This document shows positions 35,378-60,179 of a stretch of DNA of 64,000 bases, piece by piece (positions within the stretch are counted from its first letter, which is position 1; each line of letters opens with the position of its first letter). The translations under genes were made by a program, and so were the position numbers. Origin of the DNA: Phytoactinopolyspora alkaliphila (lineage in GTDB: Bacteria; Actinomycetota; Actinomycetes; Jiangellales; Jiangellaceae). The DNA lies in assembly GCF_010550695.1 (NCBI RefSeq), contig NZ_JAAGOB010000004.1, positions 124,001 to 188,000 on the forward strand, written 5' to 3'. Under the pieces are notes generated by a model. The model saw nothing but the letters and a program-made list of their open reading frames with translations, did not search any database and was not told where the DNA came from.

Positions 35378-35632
35378 GTGCCGAAGTCGCGCCGCCGCAA
35401 GAAGGATGACTCCCCAGCACAGGAGCCACGTGAGGCCCGCGACCCGGGTGTCTCCGGTCGCTGGGTGGTTCCCACCATGCTCACGCTCCTGATCCTGGGG
35501 CTGGTGTGGATTGTCGCCTACTACCTGCTCCGTGAAGAGATACCTTTCATGGACTCGATCGGAGGATGGAATCTGGTCATCGGCATGGGGCTGATCACGG
35601 GCGGGTTCATCACAGCGACCCAGTGGAAGTGA
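35378..35632 (+). CDS. crgA: Cell division protein CrgA
   Basis: 84 residues with two membrane helices (~36-53 and ~63-80), as in all CrgA proteins. It begins PKSRRRKKDDSP. CrgA coordinates FtsZ-ring stability and septal peptidoglycan enzymes in actinobacteria. The GTG at 35378 has AGGAGAGG seven nt upstream; longer frames are not conserved. Confidence 0.94.
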   Translation: MPKSRRRKKDDSPAQEPREARDPGVSGRWVVPTMLTLLILGLVWIVAYYLLREEIPFMDSIGGWNLVIGMGLITGGFITATQWK

Positions 35633-35715
35633 GACCGGCGCCGCGCGCATCATCAAGCCGCCGGGCGTCCAGCCGAACCCGGTTTCAGCGAGGAGCCGAC
35701 CTCGCACTCCGGCCA

Positions 35716-35746
35716 AAGGGCCCGTCACCGACGGTGACGGGCCCTT
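35716..35746. terminator. Terminator hairpin after crgA
   Basis: A perfect 15-bp stem, AAGGGCCCGTCACCG and its complement around a single A, 84 nt after crgA. It lies between the convergent crgA and rhomboid genes and directly precedes the DnaA-box cluster. Confidence 0.85.
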
Positions 35747-35753
35747 GCTGTGC

Positions 35754-35946
35754 GTATCCACAGCATGCAAGCTCATCTGTGGATGAAACGGACAGGCGTC
35801 ACATGGTTCACACCGGTCCCAGTCAAGATCCACATTTATGCACCTGACCTGCAAGGATGGCTTATCCACAAGCTCCCTACACACCTGTGATTACACGCGT
35901 GTAGTTTTCCCCACTGGGGATAGTGCCTGTGGATAACTGTGGACAG
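35754..35946. other. DnaA-box cluster between convergent crgA and rhomboid genes
   Basis: Six DnaA-box-like 9-mers occur in 193 bp. Two match TTATCCACA exactly (35862-35870 on +, 35928-35936 on -). Two match 8 of 9: GTATCCACA (35754-35762) and, on minus, TCATCCACA (35778-35786). Two match 7 of 9: 35826-35834 and 35938-35946. The block is richer in A+T than the surroundings. It lies downstream of both neighbours, so it is not an ordinary promoter. About 22 kb from oriC. Confidence 0.7.
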
Positions 35947-35973: not shown

Positions 35974-36882
35974 TCACGCGACCGTCCACGCCACGGTGGC
36001 GGCGACGAGTACCGCCACCACGACGCAGCCCGTGATGCTCCACATGGCTCGGCGCCGGCGCGGCGCGTAGGCGAACACGAACGCGAGCATGGCACCCACG
36101 ACGAGCCCGCCCAAATGGGCTCGCCAGTCGATACCTGGCACGACGAAGCCGATGACCGCGTTGATACCCACGATCACGAGCACCGCGCTGACATCGCGGC
36201 CGATCCGCCGCATCACGATGAACAGGGCACCCATGAGGCCGAAGACCGCCCCGGAGGCACCCAAGGACATGGAGTAGGGGCTCGCCCCCAGCAAGGACAC
36301 CGCAGATCCGCCCAGCGCGGACAGGATGTACAGGGTGATGAACCGCCATCGTCCCAGCACCGGCTCGAGCGCACTGCCGAGAATCCACAGCGCGAACATG
36401 TTCAAGCCGATGTGCCAGAACTCCATGTGCACGAATGCCGCCGTGAGCAGGCGGTACCACTCACCTTCAGCGATGCCGATGGGAAGCGGGTCCGGTGCGT
36501 ACCCCAACACGAGGGCGAAGCGAGCCGGAATCTCCTGCCAGTTCCCGCCGATGGCCCGGATGAAGTCGGACACGTCGCCCTGCCGCACGACCAGCGTCAG
36601 CAGCCAGACCACCACATTGATCCCGATGAGGGACTTGGTGATGAGGTCGCCGTTCTCCCGAATCTCGCCACCCAACGCGGTTCGGGGCTGACGCACCGAC
36701 TTCCGTCCTTCGGCGAGGCACTCCGGACACTGAAAACCGACCGGCGCGGCCGTCATGCATTCCGGGCAGATATGCCGATTGCAGCGAGAACAGCGAATAT
36801 AGGTCTCGCGATCAGCGTGCCGGTAGCACGTGGGTATGCCCGATCCAGGCTGTCGAGGGGCCTGGTCACCAGATCCAGTCAT
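35974..36882 (-). CDS. Rhomboid-family intramembrane serine protease with N-terminal zinc ribbon
   Basis: 302 residues. Residues ~14-50 hold a cysteine/His zinc-binding module (CYRHADRETYIRCSRC, CPECMTA, CPECLAEG). The rhomboid domain has about six to seven helices with the catalytic Ser in GASGAVFGLMGAL and His in DWRAHLGGLVVGAM. It cleaves membrane proteins; targets here unknown. ATG at 36882, 12 nt after the cyclophilin gene start region, on the same strand. Confidence 0.93.
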   Translation of the reverse strand: MTGSGDQAPRQPGSGIPTCYRHADRETYIRCSRCNRHICPECMTAAPVGFQCPECLAEGRKSVRQPRTALGGEIRENGDLITKSLIGINVVVWLLTLVVRQGDVSDFIRAIGGNWQEIPARFALVLGYAPDPLPIGIAEGEWYRLLTAAFVHMEFWHIGLNMFALWILGSALEPVLGRWRFITLYILSALGGSAVSLLGASPYSMSLGASGAVFGLMGALFIVMRRIGRDVSAVLVIVGINAVIGFVVPGIDWRAHLGGLVVGAMLAFVFAYAPRRRRAMWSITGCVVVAVLVAATVAWTVA

Positions 36883-56619: not shown

Positions 56620-57762
56620 CTACCCGGAAAGCCGGATCGGCATGGCCAGGTATCGGTAACCCGAGGTGGGCTCCGCCTCGAGGCTCTCGATGCCCTGAAT
56701 CACCACCGGTTTGAGCGGGGTGTCGGTGAACGACAGATACACGAACGGCGTACCCAGAGCCTGCAGGCCGTCGAGCAAGTATCCCGGGTTGAAGCCCGTG
56801 GCGATGGCCGGCCCCTCCACGTGCGCCTGGAGGGCTTCCGAGGCCTGTGCGTCTTCGCCGCTTCCGGCTTCGAGGACCACCTGGCCGTCGTCGAATGCCA
56901 GCCGTACAGGGGTGTTCCGCTCGGCCACGAGCGAGACACGCTTCACCGAGTCGATCAACGACGCGATCTCGACCTTGGCGACCGTAGCGATCTCGGCGGG
57001 GAAGAGCCTGCGATAGTTGGGCACCCATTCACCGTCGATGAGCCGGCTGGTGGTGTGCCTTCCGCCGGCCGCGATACCGATGAGGCTGTCGTCTGTGTCG
57101 CCTCCGAGCGCGAGCGTGATGTCTCCGGCCGAGGCGAGCGTCTTGGTGGCATCCACGAGTGTTCGCGCCGGTACGAGAGCCACGGCGGAGACGTCGGGGC
57201 GCCCCGGGTTCCAGGTGAGTTCGCGCACGGCCAGCCGATACCTGTCGGTGGCACCGAGCGTGACGGTCTCGCCCTCGATCTCGATACGAATGCCGGTGAG
57301 GGTGGGCAGCATGTCGTCGCGTCCGGCCGCGACGGCGACCTGACCGACGGCCTCGGCGAAGACAGTGCCTTCCACCGTTCCCGATGCTGCCGGGAGCGCA
57401 GGCAACTCCGGGTACTCCTCAACGGGGAGGGTCACCAAAGTGAACCGAGCGTTGCCGCAAGTGATGACAACCTTGGATCCATCTGCGGTGAACTCGACCG
57501 GCTTCGCCGGCAGTGACCGCGCGATGTCGGCGAGAAGCTTGCCGGAGACCAGCACGGTCCCGGGATCGGCGACCTCGGCCGAGACGGAAACCTTGCCGGA
57601 CACCTCGTAGTCGAAGGACGAGAAGGCGACCTGCCCGTCTGAGGCGTCGAGCCGCAGGCCGGCGAGGACCGGAACCGTTGGCCGGTTAGGCAGGGTACGA
57701 GCCGTCCATGCGACGGCTTCGGCGAGTACGTCGCGTTCGAGCCGGAACTTCACCGGTTTCAC
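56620..57762 (-). CDS. dnaN: DNA polymerase III beta subunit (sliding clamp)
   Basis: 380 residues. Three clamp domains: KFRLERDVLAEAVAWTARTLPNRPTVPVLAGL, FTLVTLPVEEYPELPALP and the C-terminal MPIRLSG. GTG at 57762 has GGGGAGG upstream but only 3 nt between; an alternative GTG at 57753 gives the more conserved VKFRLERDVL start but 12-nt spacing. Forms the processivity ring for the polymerase. First gene downstream of oriC on this strand. Confidence 0.96.
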   Translation of the reverse strand: MKPVKFRLERDVLAEAVAWTARTLPNRPTVPVLAGLRLDASDGQVAFSSFDYEVSGKVSVSAEVADPGTVLVSGKLLADIARSLPAKPVEFTADGSKVVITCGNARFTLVTLPVEEYPELPALPAASGTVEGTVFAEAVGQVAVAAGRDDMLPTLTGIRIEIEGETVTLGATDRYRLAVRELTWNPGRPDVSAVALVPARTLVDATKTLASAGDITLALGGDTDDSLIGIAAGGRHTTSRLIDGEWVPNYRRLFPAEIATVAKVEIASLIDSVKRVSLVAERNTPVRLAFDDGQVVLEAGSGEDAQASEALQAHVEGPAIATGFNPGYLLDGLQALGTPFVYLSFTDTPLKPVVIQGIESLEAEPTSGYRYLAMPIRLSG

Positions 57763-58172
57763 CGTCCTCCCCGCGGGACTAGCCCGGCGGATGTTCTGAG
57801 AGAGATGTTTGAGCGATCAGCGTTGGTGCGAGTCATCCTTGCACGAGCAGGCGACAGTCGACGTGGACGGTCCGGAGGTTTTTCCACACGAGCTGCCCCA
57901 GGTGAGTTGTGTGGTTCTTCATTACCCATAGATAGTCTCGTCTTGGCCATAGCGTCGGTGGAAACTGTGGACAGGGGTCGAAATCCCTGGCAGGTCCCAG
58001 TTTTCTCGTCCACCGCGGTTGTGGAGGCGGCGGGGACGAGACGTGGACACATCGGCGTTGTCCACGTGTAAGAGTCAGCTGTCCACCTCCGGTCCACCGA
58101 AAGAAGTCTCTGTTCCACAGACTTTTCCACATCCTGTGCGGAGTGGATCATGACGTCCGGGCGCTGCATGTC
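57763..58172. other. Chromosomal origin oriC (dnaA-dnaN intergenic)
   Basis: The 410-bp gap holds a cluster of DnaA boxes: TTTTCCACA (57880-57888, 58123-58131), minus-strand CTGTCCACA (57966-57974), minus-strand GTGTCCACG (58042-58050), TTGTCCACG (58058-58066), CTGTCCACC (58079-58087) and TGTTCCACA (58111-58119). They are the degenerate, GC-tolerant boxes of actinobacterial origins. An AT-richer stretch around 57905-57950 may help unwinding. Placement between dnaA and dnaN is the norm. Confidence 0.9.
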
Positions 58173-59675
58173 TCAGGACTGCCGTGCTTGTTGCTTGATG
58201 CGGTTAGTCAGCTCGGTGACCTGGTTGAACACGCTGCGGCGTTCGGCCATCAGAGTGCGGATCTTGCGCTGGGCGTGCATGACCGTGGTGTGATCCCGGC
58301 CGCCGAAGTGCTGACCGATCTTGGGAAGGGACAGGTCGGTCAGCTCGCGGCACAGGTACATAGCGATCTGCCGTGCTGTCACCAGAACCCGGCTGCGGCT
58401 GGTGCCCTGGAGGTCCTCGATCGTGAGGCCGAAATAGCCGGCCGTCTGGGCCATGATGGTTGCCGCGGTGATCTCCGGCCCGGTGTCGTTGCTCACCAGA
58501 TCACGCAGCACCACCTCAGCGAGATTGCGGTCTACGGGCTGGCGATTGAGACTCGCGAACGCCGTGACACGAATCAGCGCCCCTTCAAGCTCTCGGATGT
58601 TGGTGACGACCTTGCTGGCGATGTACTCCAGGACGTCCGGCGGCACGTTGAGACTGTCCTGGGCCGCCTTCTTCGACAGGATGGCGATCCGAGTCTCGAG
58701 GTCCGGCGGCTGAACGTCACAGATCAAACCCCATTCGAAGCGGTTGCGCAGCCGGTCCTCGAGCGCCGAGAGCTGCTTCGGCGGGCGATCCGAGGTGATG
58801 ACGATCTGCTTGCTCGCGTTGTGCAGGGTGTTGAACGTGTGGAAGAACTCTTCCTGCGTCTGGATCTTTCCCTCGAGGAACTGGATGTCGTCGATGAGCA
58901 GGACGTCGACATCGCGATAGCGACGCTGAAAGGCTGACGCCTTGTCGTCGCGGATGGAGTTGATGAAGTCGTTGGTGAACTCCTCGGAGCTGACGTATCG
59001 AACCCGTGTGCCCGGGTACATGTCCCGGGCGTAATGGCCGATCGCATGCAGCAGATGAGTCTTGCCGAGGCCTGAGTCGCCGTAGACGAGCAGCGGGTTG
59101 TAGGCCTTTCCGGGAGCTTCGGCTACGGCGACCGTCGCGGCGTGGGCGAAGCGGTTGCTCGAGCCGATGACGAAGGTGTCGAACGTGTAGCGCGAGTTCA
59201 GGTGTGGTGCCTCCACTGGCGCGGCGGTGTTCGGCAGATCGGAGCGATCGCGGCGCGGTGACGGTATGAACTCGCGGTTGTCGGCCGCTTCCGGGGCTCG
59301 CTGGGTGATCGGAATGGGCTCTGGCGCGGCATGAGCACCCGCGTCCGGCGTGTCGTGTTCGGTGGGCGACGGCATGGGGTGCGCGTCTCGCGTCGGCGAC
59401 TGGTCAGGAGGGGCGCTCACGCTGATGGCGAGCGAGACGGGTGTGCCGAGAACGGCGGTGAGGGCGTCGGTGAGCGGCGAGCGCAGCCGCTGTTCGATCT
59501 GGGCTCGCGCGAAATCGCTGGGCACAGCGATCACCGCTGTCCCTTCGACCAACGTGACCGGCCGTGCCTGAGCGAGGAAAGCCCGCTGCTGAGGTCCGAT
59601 GTGCTGGTCTCCGTCCAGCGCATCGAGAGCCTTCGCCCACGCGACGACGAAATCGGTCGCCGGCTGTTCCGTCAC
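58173..59675 (-). CDS. dnaA: Chromosomal replication initiator DnaA
   Basis: 500 residues. Domain I (~1-85), variable linker (~86-150), AAA+ domain with Walker [10 protein letters not shown] (199-207) and Walker [10 protein letters not shown], and the DnaA box-binding signature [12 protein letters not shown] chose the GTG at 59675 because [13 protein letters not shown] matches mycobacterial DnaA and has GGAG upstream; the frame is open to 59771. Binds oriC to start replication. Confidence 0.96.
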
Positions 59676-60179
59676 TCCGCACTCCAAACTGGCGACATTT
59701 CTCCGCGCCATCCCCGTAACACGTTGTCCACACCCTCCTCCACAGGCTGTGGAGAATGCCGCCGCGAGCACACTTTCTGGTAGCCCCCGCCGCTTGACGT
59801 GCGTCGATGCCCGTCATGAAGATCGTGTGGCGCTCCGACATCTCGTGCTGTCGGACACGTGACGCTAACAACATGCGGGCCTGCGTTCAACCGATGTCCA
59901 CAGGTTACGCGGGAAATCGCCGGCGTGTCGCTAAGCTATGGGCTCGGATTCGGATGAGAAGCTGATGTGTTTTCGCGCACTCCCTGAAACGGAGGCACGG
60001 CCAGTTTGACCTGAGGTGCCGCGTGCGCGTACCGTTAATCGGTCCGGCGAGGGCCTTCTTCAGCGTGCTCAGGGTGTGTCTGCCCGGGGTTTTTTGCGTG
60101 CAGAAGGCGGTGGCCGGATGAATCGACCAAACATGTATCAATGCAGGCAGATGCCTCGACGATCTTCAGGAGCCCGGAC
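59676..60179. promoter_or_regulatory. Divergent dnaA-rpmH control region
   Basis: 504 bp between dnaA (-) and rpmH (+). It has TTGTCCACA (59724-59732) and, on minus, TTCTCCACA (59748-59756) and an ATGTCCACA (59894-59902) close to the dnaA start, suggesting DnaA autoregulation. CTCCACA/TGTGGAG (59738-59754) forms a dyad. The remaining ~270 bp, with the rpmH promoter, show no recognised element. Confidence 0.7.

Follow-up and report, generated by a model that had tools for sequence, protein, structure and literature searches.

The crgA-rhomboid gap and the oriC of the window

The window (the whole 64 kb stretch of DNA analysed here) contains a cluster of DnaA boxes at 35754-35946, outside oriC and between the ends of two convergent genes: crgA, on the + strand, stops at 35632, and the gene for a rhomboid-family membrane protease, on the - strand, stops at 35974. 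The features of this region are as follows:

35378-35632, + strand: crgA (cell division protein CrgA; Pfam PF06781, E 1.5e-28), ending towards the element
35716-35746, + strand: strong terminator-like hairpin after crgA (fold of 35712-35750: -30.1 kcal/mol, z -6.4)
35754-35762, + strand: DnaA box GTATCCACA, 1 mismatch
35778-35786, - strand: DnaA box TCATCCACA, 1 mismatch
35862-35870, + strand: DnaA box, exact TTATCCACA
35876-35891, no strand: P1, a second and weaker copy in tandem with P, CCTACACACCTGTGAT, 8/10 positions
35890-35905, no strand: palindrome P, ATTACACGCGTGTAGT, 9/10 positions of ATNACA-N4-TGTNAT
35905-35913, + strand: box 1 of the compact element, TTTTCCCCA, 2 mismatches; abuts P, with one base in common
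35915-35923, - strand: middle box, CTATCCCCA, 2 mismatches
35928-35936, - strand: box 3, exact TTATCCACA, 23 bp after box 1
35938-35946, - strand: fourth compact box, CTGTCCACA, 1 mismatch
35974-36882, - strand: gene for rhomboid-family membrane protease, convergent neighbour (Pfam PF01694, E 7.1e-33)
57763-58172, no strand: oriC, intergenic between dnaN (frame 56620-57762, named from sequence) and dnaA (frame 58173-59771)

The initial annotation had recognised a second DnaA-box cluster between convergent gene ends, with two exact copies of TTATCCACA in inverted orientation, and all of this is borne out. With a box defined as at most one mismatch to TTATCCACA or TTGTCCACA (a two-mismatch set was also counted, and controls were treated alike), the 193 bp interval holds five boxes (35754+, 35778-, 35862+, 35928- and 35938-), of which the third and fourth are the exact copies. 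The "four looser" boxes that had also been claimed are right in kind, but their number varies with the mismatch tolerance; five further boxes lie in the interval when up to two mismatches are allowed. When the whole window was shuffled 300 times with its dinucleotides preserved, the maximum was three one-mismatch boxes per 193 bp, and a pair of exact TTATCCACA boxes within 193 bp never occurred. The palindrome P (35890-35905) and the compact layout of the right-hand boxes had not been mentioned previously. From P to box 3 this layout spans 47 bp, and the composite of P, box 1 and box 3 occurs only here in the 64 kb when both strands are scanned. Box 1 and the middle box carry CCCCA in the window, and may bind DnaA weakly.

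The host genome (5.5 Mb) has 21 exact copies of TTATCCACA and 50 exact copies of TTRTCCACA, so the five boxes are a small share of its DnaA-binding capacity. The only other pair of exact TTATCCACA boxes within 300 bp in this genome is at 80261/80476 on contig C2. These two, 215 bp apart, form with several looser boxes a second cluster (C2:80261-80484), which has a metal-peptidase-like frame (HELAH) on one side and ThiF-like and ABC1-kinase-like frames on the other (all named from sequence).

The position between two gene ends would suit a terminator, or an RNA element, belonging to the convergent genes, and both P and the convergently placed boxes form inverted repeats, with weak covariation in one of eight P pairs (12/26 versus 7.9 expected, uncorrected P 0.036). 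However, a separate strong hairpin (z -6.4) already follows crgA; it is likely the crgA terminator and lies outside the compact element. The element folds no better than its shuffles (z -0.45), pairing between the middle and opposed boxes is not in excess (6.74/9 versus 6.87 in shuffles, 31 family representatives), and the element has no Rfam match at gathering scores. We consider a function as terminator or RNA highly improbable.

The window's oriC lies 21.8 kb from the element, and the DnaA C-terminal domain (PF08299) is found at the dnaA place beside it. That the cluster is closer to consensus than oriC holds in the window, because oriC has four one-mismatch boxes and none that is exact, but TTATCCACA is the E. 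coli-type consensus. For Streptomyces coelicolor and Mycobacterium tuberculosis, a review gives TTGTCCACA as the box of high affinity (PMC4285127). Three more DnaA boxes lie around the dnaA start (59724-59902), at 59724+ (TTGTCCACA), 59748- and 59894+, and these possibly serve autoregulation.

Conservation and geometry of the boxes beside crgA

For comparison we used the DNA after the crgA stop codon in 155 genomes of the class, from 36 families. These come from 159 genomes (G000-G158), among which G035, G080 and G086 have no CrgA match and the place in G085 was not among the matches listed. Three of these stretches fall short of 350 bp, five of 700 bp and eight of 1100 bp, and controls thus cover 147 to 150 genomes (five stretches end before the 700-1050 bp control interval and two more end inside it). 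Because related genomes lack independence, families are counted alongside genomes, with family labels as assigned by the tool. For other classes of the phylum the best 40 of 45 non-class genomes with CrgA were taken, one of whose stretches is too short for the control.

Conservation of the boxes, one of the two points on which the initial annotation had staked its case beforehand, was found. At least one box lies within 350 bp of the crgA stop in 142/155 genomes and at least two in 123/155, as against seven and two genomes in the control interval 700-1050 bp after crgA, and five and one in the interval 1100-1450 bp. The same 350 bp contain boxes in 28/40 genomes of the other classes, and neither control interval does in any of them. 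In all 80 Streptomyces loci two exact TTATCCACA boxes lie after crgA, inverted and less than 90 bp apart; the Streptomyces family of our sample (f19) includes G113, whose CrgA matches these loci at up to 99% identity. The box profile is consensus-like across loci, which is partly circular since the boxes were chosen by their resemblance to the DnaA consensus. Of the 13 genomes that lack a box within 350 bp, seven belong to family f23 and four to f24, the other two being G100 and G023; the last does have boxes, 0.7 to 1.8 kb after crgA and before the rhomboid gene, and these were counted in the control.

In the 95 genomes where crgA and dnaA are on one contig they are 9.1-176.7 kb apart (median 23.4 kb). 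Since gene order is conserved, crgA is expected near oriC, and its closeness alone does not prove selection for position. Family f23 is informative about the tie to crgA itself. In four of its members (G084, G105, G114 and G148) crgA, the element, the convergent rhomboid gene and ppiA are all together. In their relatives G059, G132 and G156 crgA is some 30 kb away from dnaA, on the other end of the chromosome as deposited, and has no boxes after it, and P with boxes is found directly after the rhomboid gene, about 9 kb from dnaA. The element therefore keeps its place where crgA is located elsewhere. In the f23 genomes G043, G073, G096 and G140, which have no boxes at crgA, there is no element elsewhere among the P places read. 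A recurrent P (ATTACACACCTGTGAT or its complement) is present in three of these genomes, at G043:C1:1216109, G096:C1:1204698 and G073:C1:337894.

The spacing of the boxes, described by the offsets between pairs, is not random. Among the 155 genomes the commonest pair is convergent at 23 bp (82 genomes, 24 families), followed by direct 13 bp (77 genomes, 20 families), convergent 10 bp (62 genomes, 19 families), direct 12 bp (38 genomes) and convergent 11 bp (30 genomes). Of 30 oriC loci all but one (G023, which could not be framed) were compared: direct 12 is present in 18 of these 29 regions, convergent 11 in two and convergent 23 in one, and convergent 10 is absent. Two boxes in the same direction with one opposed to them form a triple in 124/155 genomes (31/36 families), versus 2/147 in the control. 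Its commonest direct and convergent spacings are 13 and 10 (72 triples), 12 and 11 (24) and 12 and 12 (11); the convergent spacing is 10 or 11 in 106/124 and 10-12 in 123/124, with 15 in one and 14 in none. The triples are forward relative to crgA in 67 genomes and reverse in 57. We had taken this as a flip of the whole element, and dropped the argument because only the middle box turns between lineages, while P stays on the crgA side and the complete composite is found solely on the other strand in just six genomes.

The two-box pattern TTNTCCMCA-N14-TGKGGANAA has 38 distinct places in 37 of 148 whole genomes searched, 30 of them beside crgA, and the reversed pattern has no match in these 148. 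The eight places away from crgA are four in f18, three in f17 and one in G106. In f17 (G081, G102 and G055) the convergent pair TTRTCCACA-N14-TGTGGAYAA is at another place, which at locus L318, the one locus from which this context was taken, is between DnaB-helicase-like and transporter-like frames; DnaA boxes there would sit at the putative dnaB promoter. In f18 (G056, G094, G121 and G154) a similar convergent TTGTCCACA pair adjoins an aminotransferase-like frame, the context again being that of a single locus, L313.

These comparisons bear on the initial annotation's suggestion that the cluster might be a relic replication origin. Good DnaA boxes do cluster in the element, but it lies between crgA and the rhomboid gene and not, as an oriC would, between dnaA and dnaN, and an oriC with both of those genes is only 22 kb off in the same window. 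The lowest GC in 30 bp of the cluster is 0.43, versus 0.37 in the window's oriC, which may tell against an AT-rich unwinding stretch. The geometry of the cluster is unlike that of oriC (convergent 10 bp pair in 62/155 element loci versus 0/29 oriC regions), and it is conserved across classes. We regard a relic origin as the least credible of the readings weighed here. Families f11 and f13 have oriC regions (downstream of dnaA) with 0-2 strict-consensus boxes (G031, G052, G066, G033, G053 and G079), and these genomes carry two or three boxes in their element at crgA.

The triple also recalls the E. coli DARS core, in which one box is opposed to two same-direction boxes (described in the relevant parts of PMC5742627 and PMC8682772). 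Both have three boxes, with I opposed to II and III and the CACA ends facing each other (35905+, 35915- and 35928- in the window). A DARS-like element would join ADP-DnaA head to head on the opposed boxes, speed ADP release and so promote initiation. However, the DARS1 boxes (1108+, 1122-, 1134- of locus L160) and the DARS2 boxes (636+, 650-, 662- of locus L161) are both spaced convergent 14 and direct 12, and no triple has a convergent spacing of 14. The orientation of the middle box varies between lineages, and the element is near oriC, whereas DARS1 and DARS2, measured from the E. coli oriC position, are far from it at 0.81 and 2.97 Mb. Moreover, the topology is not specific to DARS, because datA also holds a convergent pair (12 bp). 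Reactivation of DnaA in the manner of DARS thus seems unlikely, though less so than the alternatives discussed above.

The palindrome P and its occurrence upstream of whiB

When the elements are aligned, a 16 bp palindrome, P (ATNACA-N4-TGTNAT), is seen to precede box 1 immediately, on the side towards crgA, so that in crgA orientation the composite reads P, box 1 (+), the middle box and box 3 (-), the last 23 bp after box 1. P is present at 8 or more of its 10 positions within 330 bp in 108/155 genomes, versus six in the control interval (which 150 stretches reach), and in 22/40 genomes of other classes versus two in the control. Around P in the 108 genomes, boxes on the plus strand start 15-17 bp after the P start (counts of 37, 47 and 13) and those on the minus strand 38-40 bp after it (counts of 37, 45 and 15), repeats within a genome being possible in these counts. 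The complete composite of P, box 1 and box 3 is found in crgA orientation in 98/155 genomes (26/36 families), with the offset between the boxes exactly 23 in 91 of the 98; the control interval has one match and each of five dinucleotide-shuffle sets none in that orientation. It is present in 17/40 genomes of other classes. The opposite strand carries it in 14 genomes, in six of these exclusively, which brings the overall count to 104/155 and leaves 51/155 genomes without a composite beside crgA. In 30 dnaA/oriC loci, scanned on both strands, it does not occur.

P at 8 or more positions is absent from all 12 genomes of f17, and present in one of the 12 Streptomyces genomes (f19). The 80 Streptomyces loci have a palindrome-like motif on the other strand (commonest form GTCACACCGGCGTCAA, 35/80), 27 bp (75/80) or 28 bp (5/80) before one exact box, although the template for it was written after inspection of those same sequences. 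This motif may be a changed P. G100 has a perfect P 1 Mb away from crgA, and no boxes accompany it there.

P has a second conserved place. WhiB is a regulator of division and development, and in seven genomes of one genus of f23 (g28) P lies upstream of a WhiB-family gene (Pfam PF02467), whose closest solved chains, 8dy7 and 8dy9, are named WhiB. In whiB loci collected from 30 of 32 genomes (G094 and G099 have no locus), P is found upstream at 8 or more positions in 29/30 and at 9 or more in 22/30, and in the downstream control in one and none, respectively; the host genome scores 9. The lone locus without P, and the one f17 locus in the set, is that of G055, whose family also has no P at crgA. 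Several whiB upstream regions have a right half of P, TGTAAT, that can be read as a -10 hexamer after TTGAC. This position would suit a repressor operator, and the promoter -10 match may inflate part of the whiB P score. DnaA boxes within one mismatch are absent from 28/30 of the whiB upstream regions.

That P is shared with the whiB upstream region, and that the site is oriC-proximal and conserved in position, would also fit a site for nucleoid organisation or for segregation, or one for the P regulator whose boxes serve something other than control of initiation. However, the boxes are specific to the P at crgA, and they match the DnaA consensus (in part by selection, as noted above). Such a role is, in our judgment, improbable.

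P is probably read by a second regulator, and its half-sites permit some comparison with known ones. The BldD box is TNAC-N5-GTNA; at P the spacing between TNAC and GTNA peaks at 6 (75/155 crgA loci, 18/30 whiB loci and three in the control) and is 5 in only 7/155 and 2/30, respectively, and BldD was rejected as the P binder. MtrA is reported, in the parts of the papers that deal with it, to bind oriC and contact DnaA in M. tuberculosis (PMC6265350, PMC5487470), and its half-site in Corynebacterium glutamicum, A/G-T-a-A-C-a, forms a direct repeat (PMC6265350). The P half-site RTNACA is similar, but MtrA also fails as a candidate because P is an inverted repeat. The P at crgA and the P at whiB could be read by different proteins. 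Among the matches listed, G088, G063, G108 and G135 each have a further P place besides crgA and whiB, and the gene next to it could be that of the P-binding regulator. A search of the literature for P spellings gave no match among the matches listed, in a body of text that covers subscription journals thinly.

A candidate DnaA control site and its known counterparts

The initial annotation had suggested that the cluster could hold DnaA by titration. In its plain form this means that the boxes hold DnaA according to gene copy number, and that P is an unrelated neighbour. The cluster is indeed one outside oriC of the kind reported to affect replication, with high-consensus boxes close to oriC. 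According to the sections of three papers that bear on this, such clusters repress untimely initiation in S. coelicolor and B. subtilis (PMC4585315, PMC5742627, PMC10950094); a six-cluster deletion in B. subtilis is described as initiating early (PMC5295017), and in E. coli the boxes are said to be dense near the origin and to titrate DnaA (PMC12371093). However, titration requires number and affinity, neither a fixed 23 bp geometry nor an abutting palindrome, and the genome has 50 exact copies of TTRTCCACA. Plain titration, which alone leaves both geometry and palindrome unexplained, is thus a doubtful explanation, if one to be taken more seriously than reactivation.

We think it somewhat probable that the element is a conserved, oriC-proximal DnaA control site of the datA, DARS or box-cluster kind, in which P would be the operator for a second regulator. 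The sequence patterns point to an overlooked switch for starting chromosome copying. In such a switch DnaA would fill the boxes as a small oligomer and a dimeric regulator would sit on P beside it, and the complex of the two would limit the DnaA acting at oriC, either by holding it or by altering its nucleotide state. Lying near oriC, the site would be doubled soon after initiation, which would suit a brake on re-initiation, and with modest confidence we favour a brake over an activator. Since P is also upstream of whiB, the protein that binds it may tie the control of DnaA to the division programme. A more specific form of this proposal, that the element is the actinobacterial counterpart of datA and DARS, where a putative, widespread actinobacterial regulator at P and the fixed DnaA trimer together set the activity of DnaA and whiB is controlled by that regulator too, is put forward only tentatively; if it is true, the start of replication is coupled to division and development through a single protein.

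It is not well understood how actinobacteria restrict initiation to a single round per cycle. A role as a control site would give a reason for the boxes in the crgA gap across so many lineages. The composite gives a small target for deletion, at a single chromosomal place shared by many families of the phylum, and the palindrome is a handle for finding a regulator whose site is also upstream of whiB.

The closest parallels may be within the actinobacteria. Smulczyk-Krawczyszyn and co-workers reportedly described, in 2006, the S. coelicolor DnaA-box clusters H69, H24 and D78 near oriC, and from the cosmid naming H69 may be the crgA-linked site of Streptomyces. The likeness is that of clusters of high-consensus boxes outside oriC but around it; all 80 Streptomyces loci have boxes after crgA. 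Among the matches listed in the literature (subscription journals being thinly covered) we found no account of the palindrome, the fixed three-box geometry, conservation across the class or in other classes, or the sharing with whiB. B. subtilis similarly has six clusters outside oriC whose joint loss leads to early initiation, according to passages in PMC5295017 and PMC13220808; the former also states that no B. subtilis clusters with significant roles have been identified. The E. coli locus datA resembles the element in being a non-coding DnaA-box locus with the site of a second protein, IHF, among its boxes, and is described as a negative regulator of initiation (PMC5295017, PMC5742627, in the parts that treat it). 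The two differ in that the element has P where datA has its IHF site, and in box geometry. A site for a partner protein is thus present in datA and, by the same account, in DARS2 (PMC5742627), and in both it recalls P beside the boxes.
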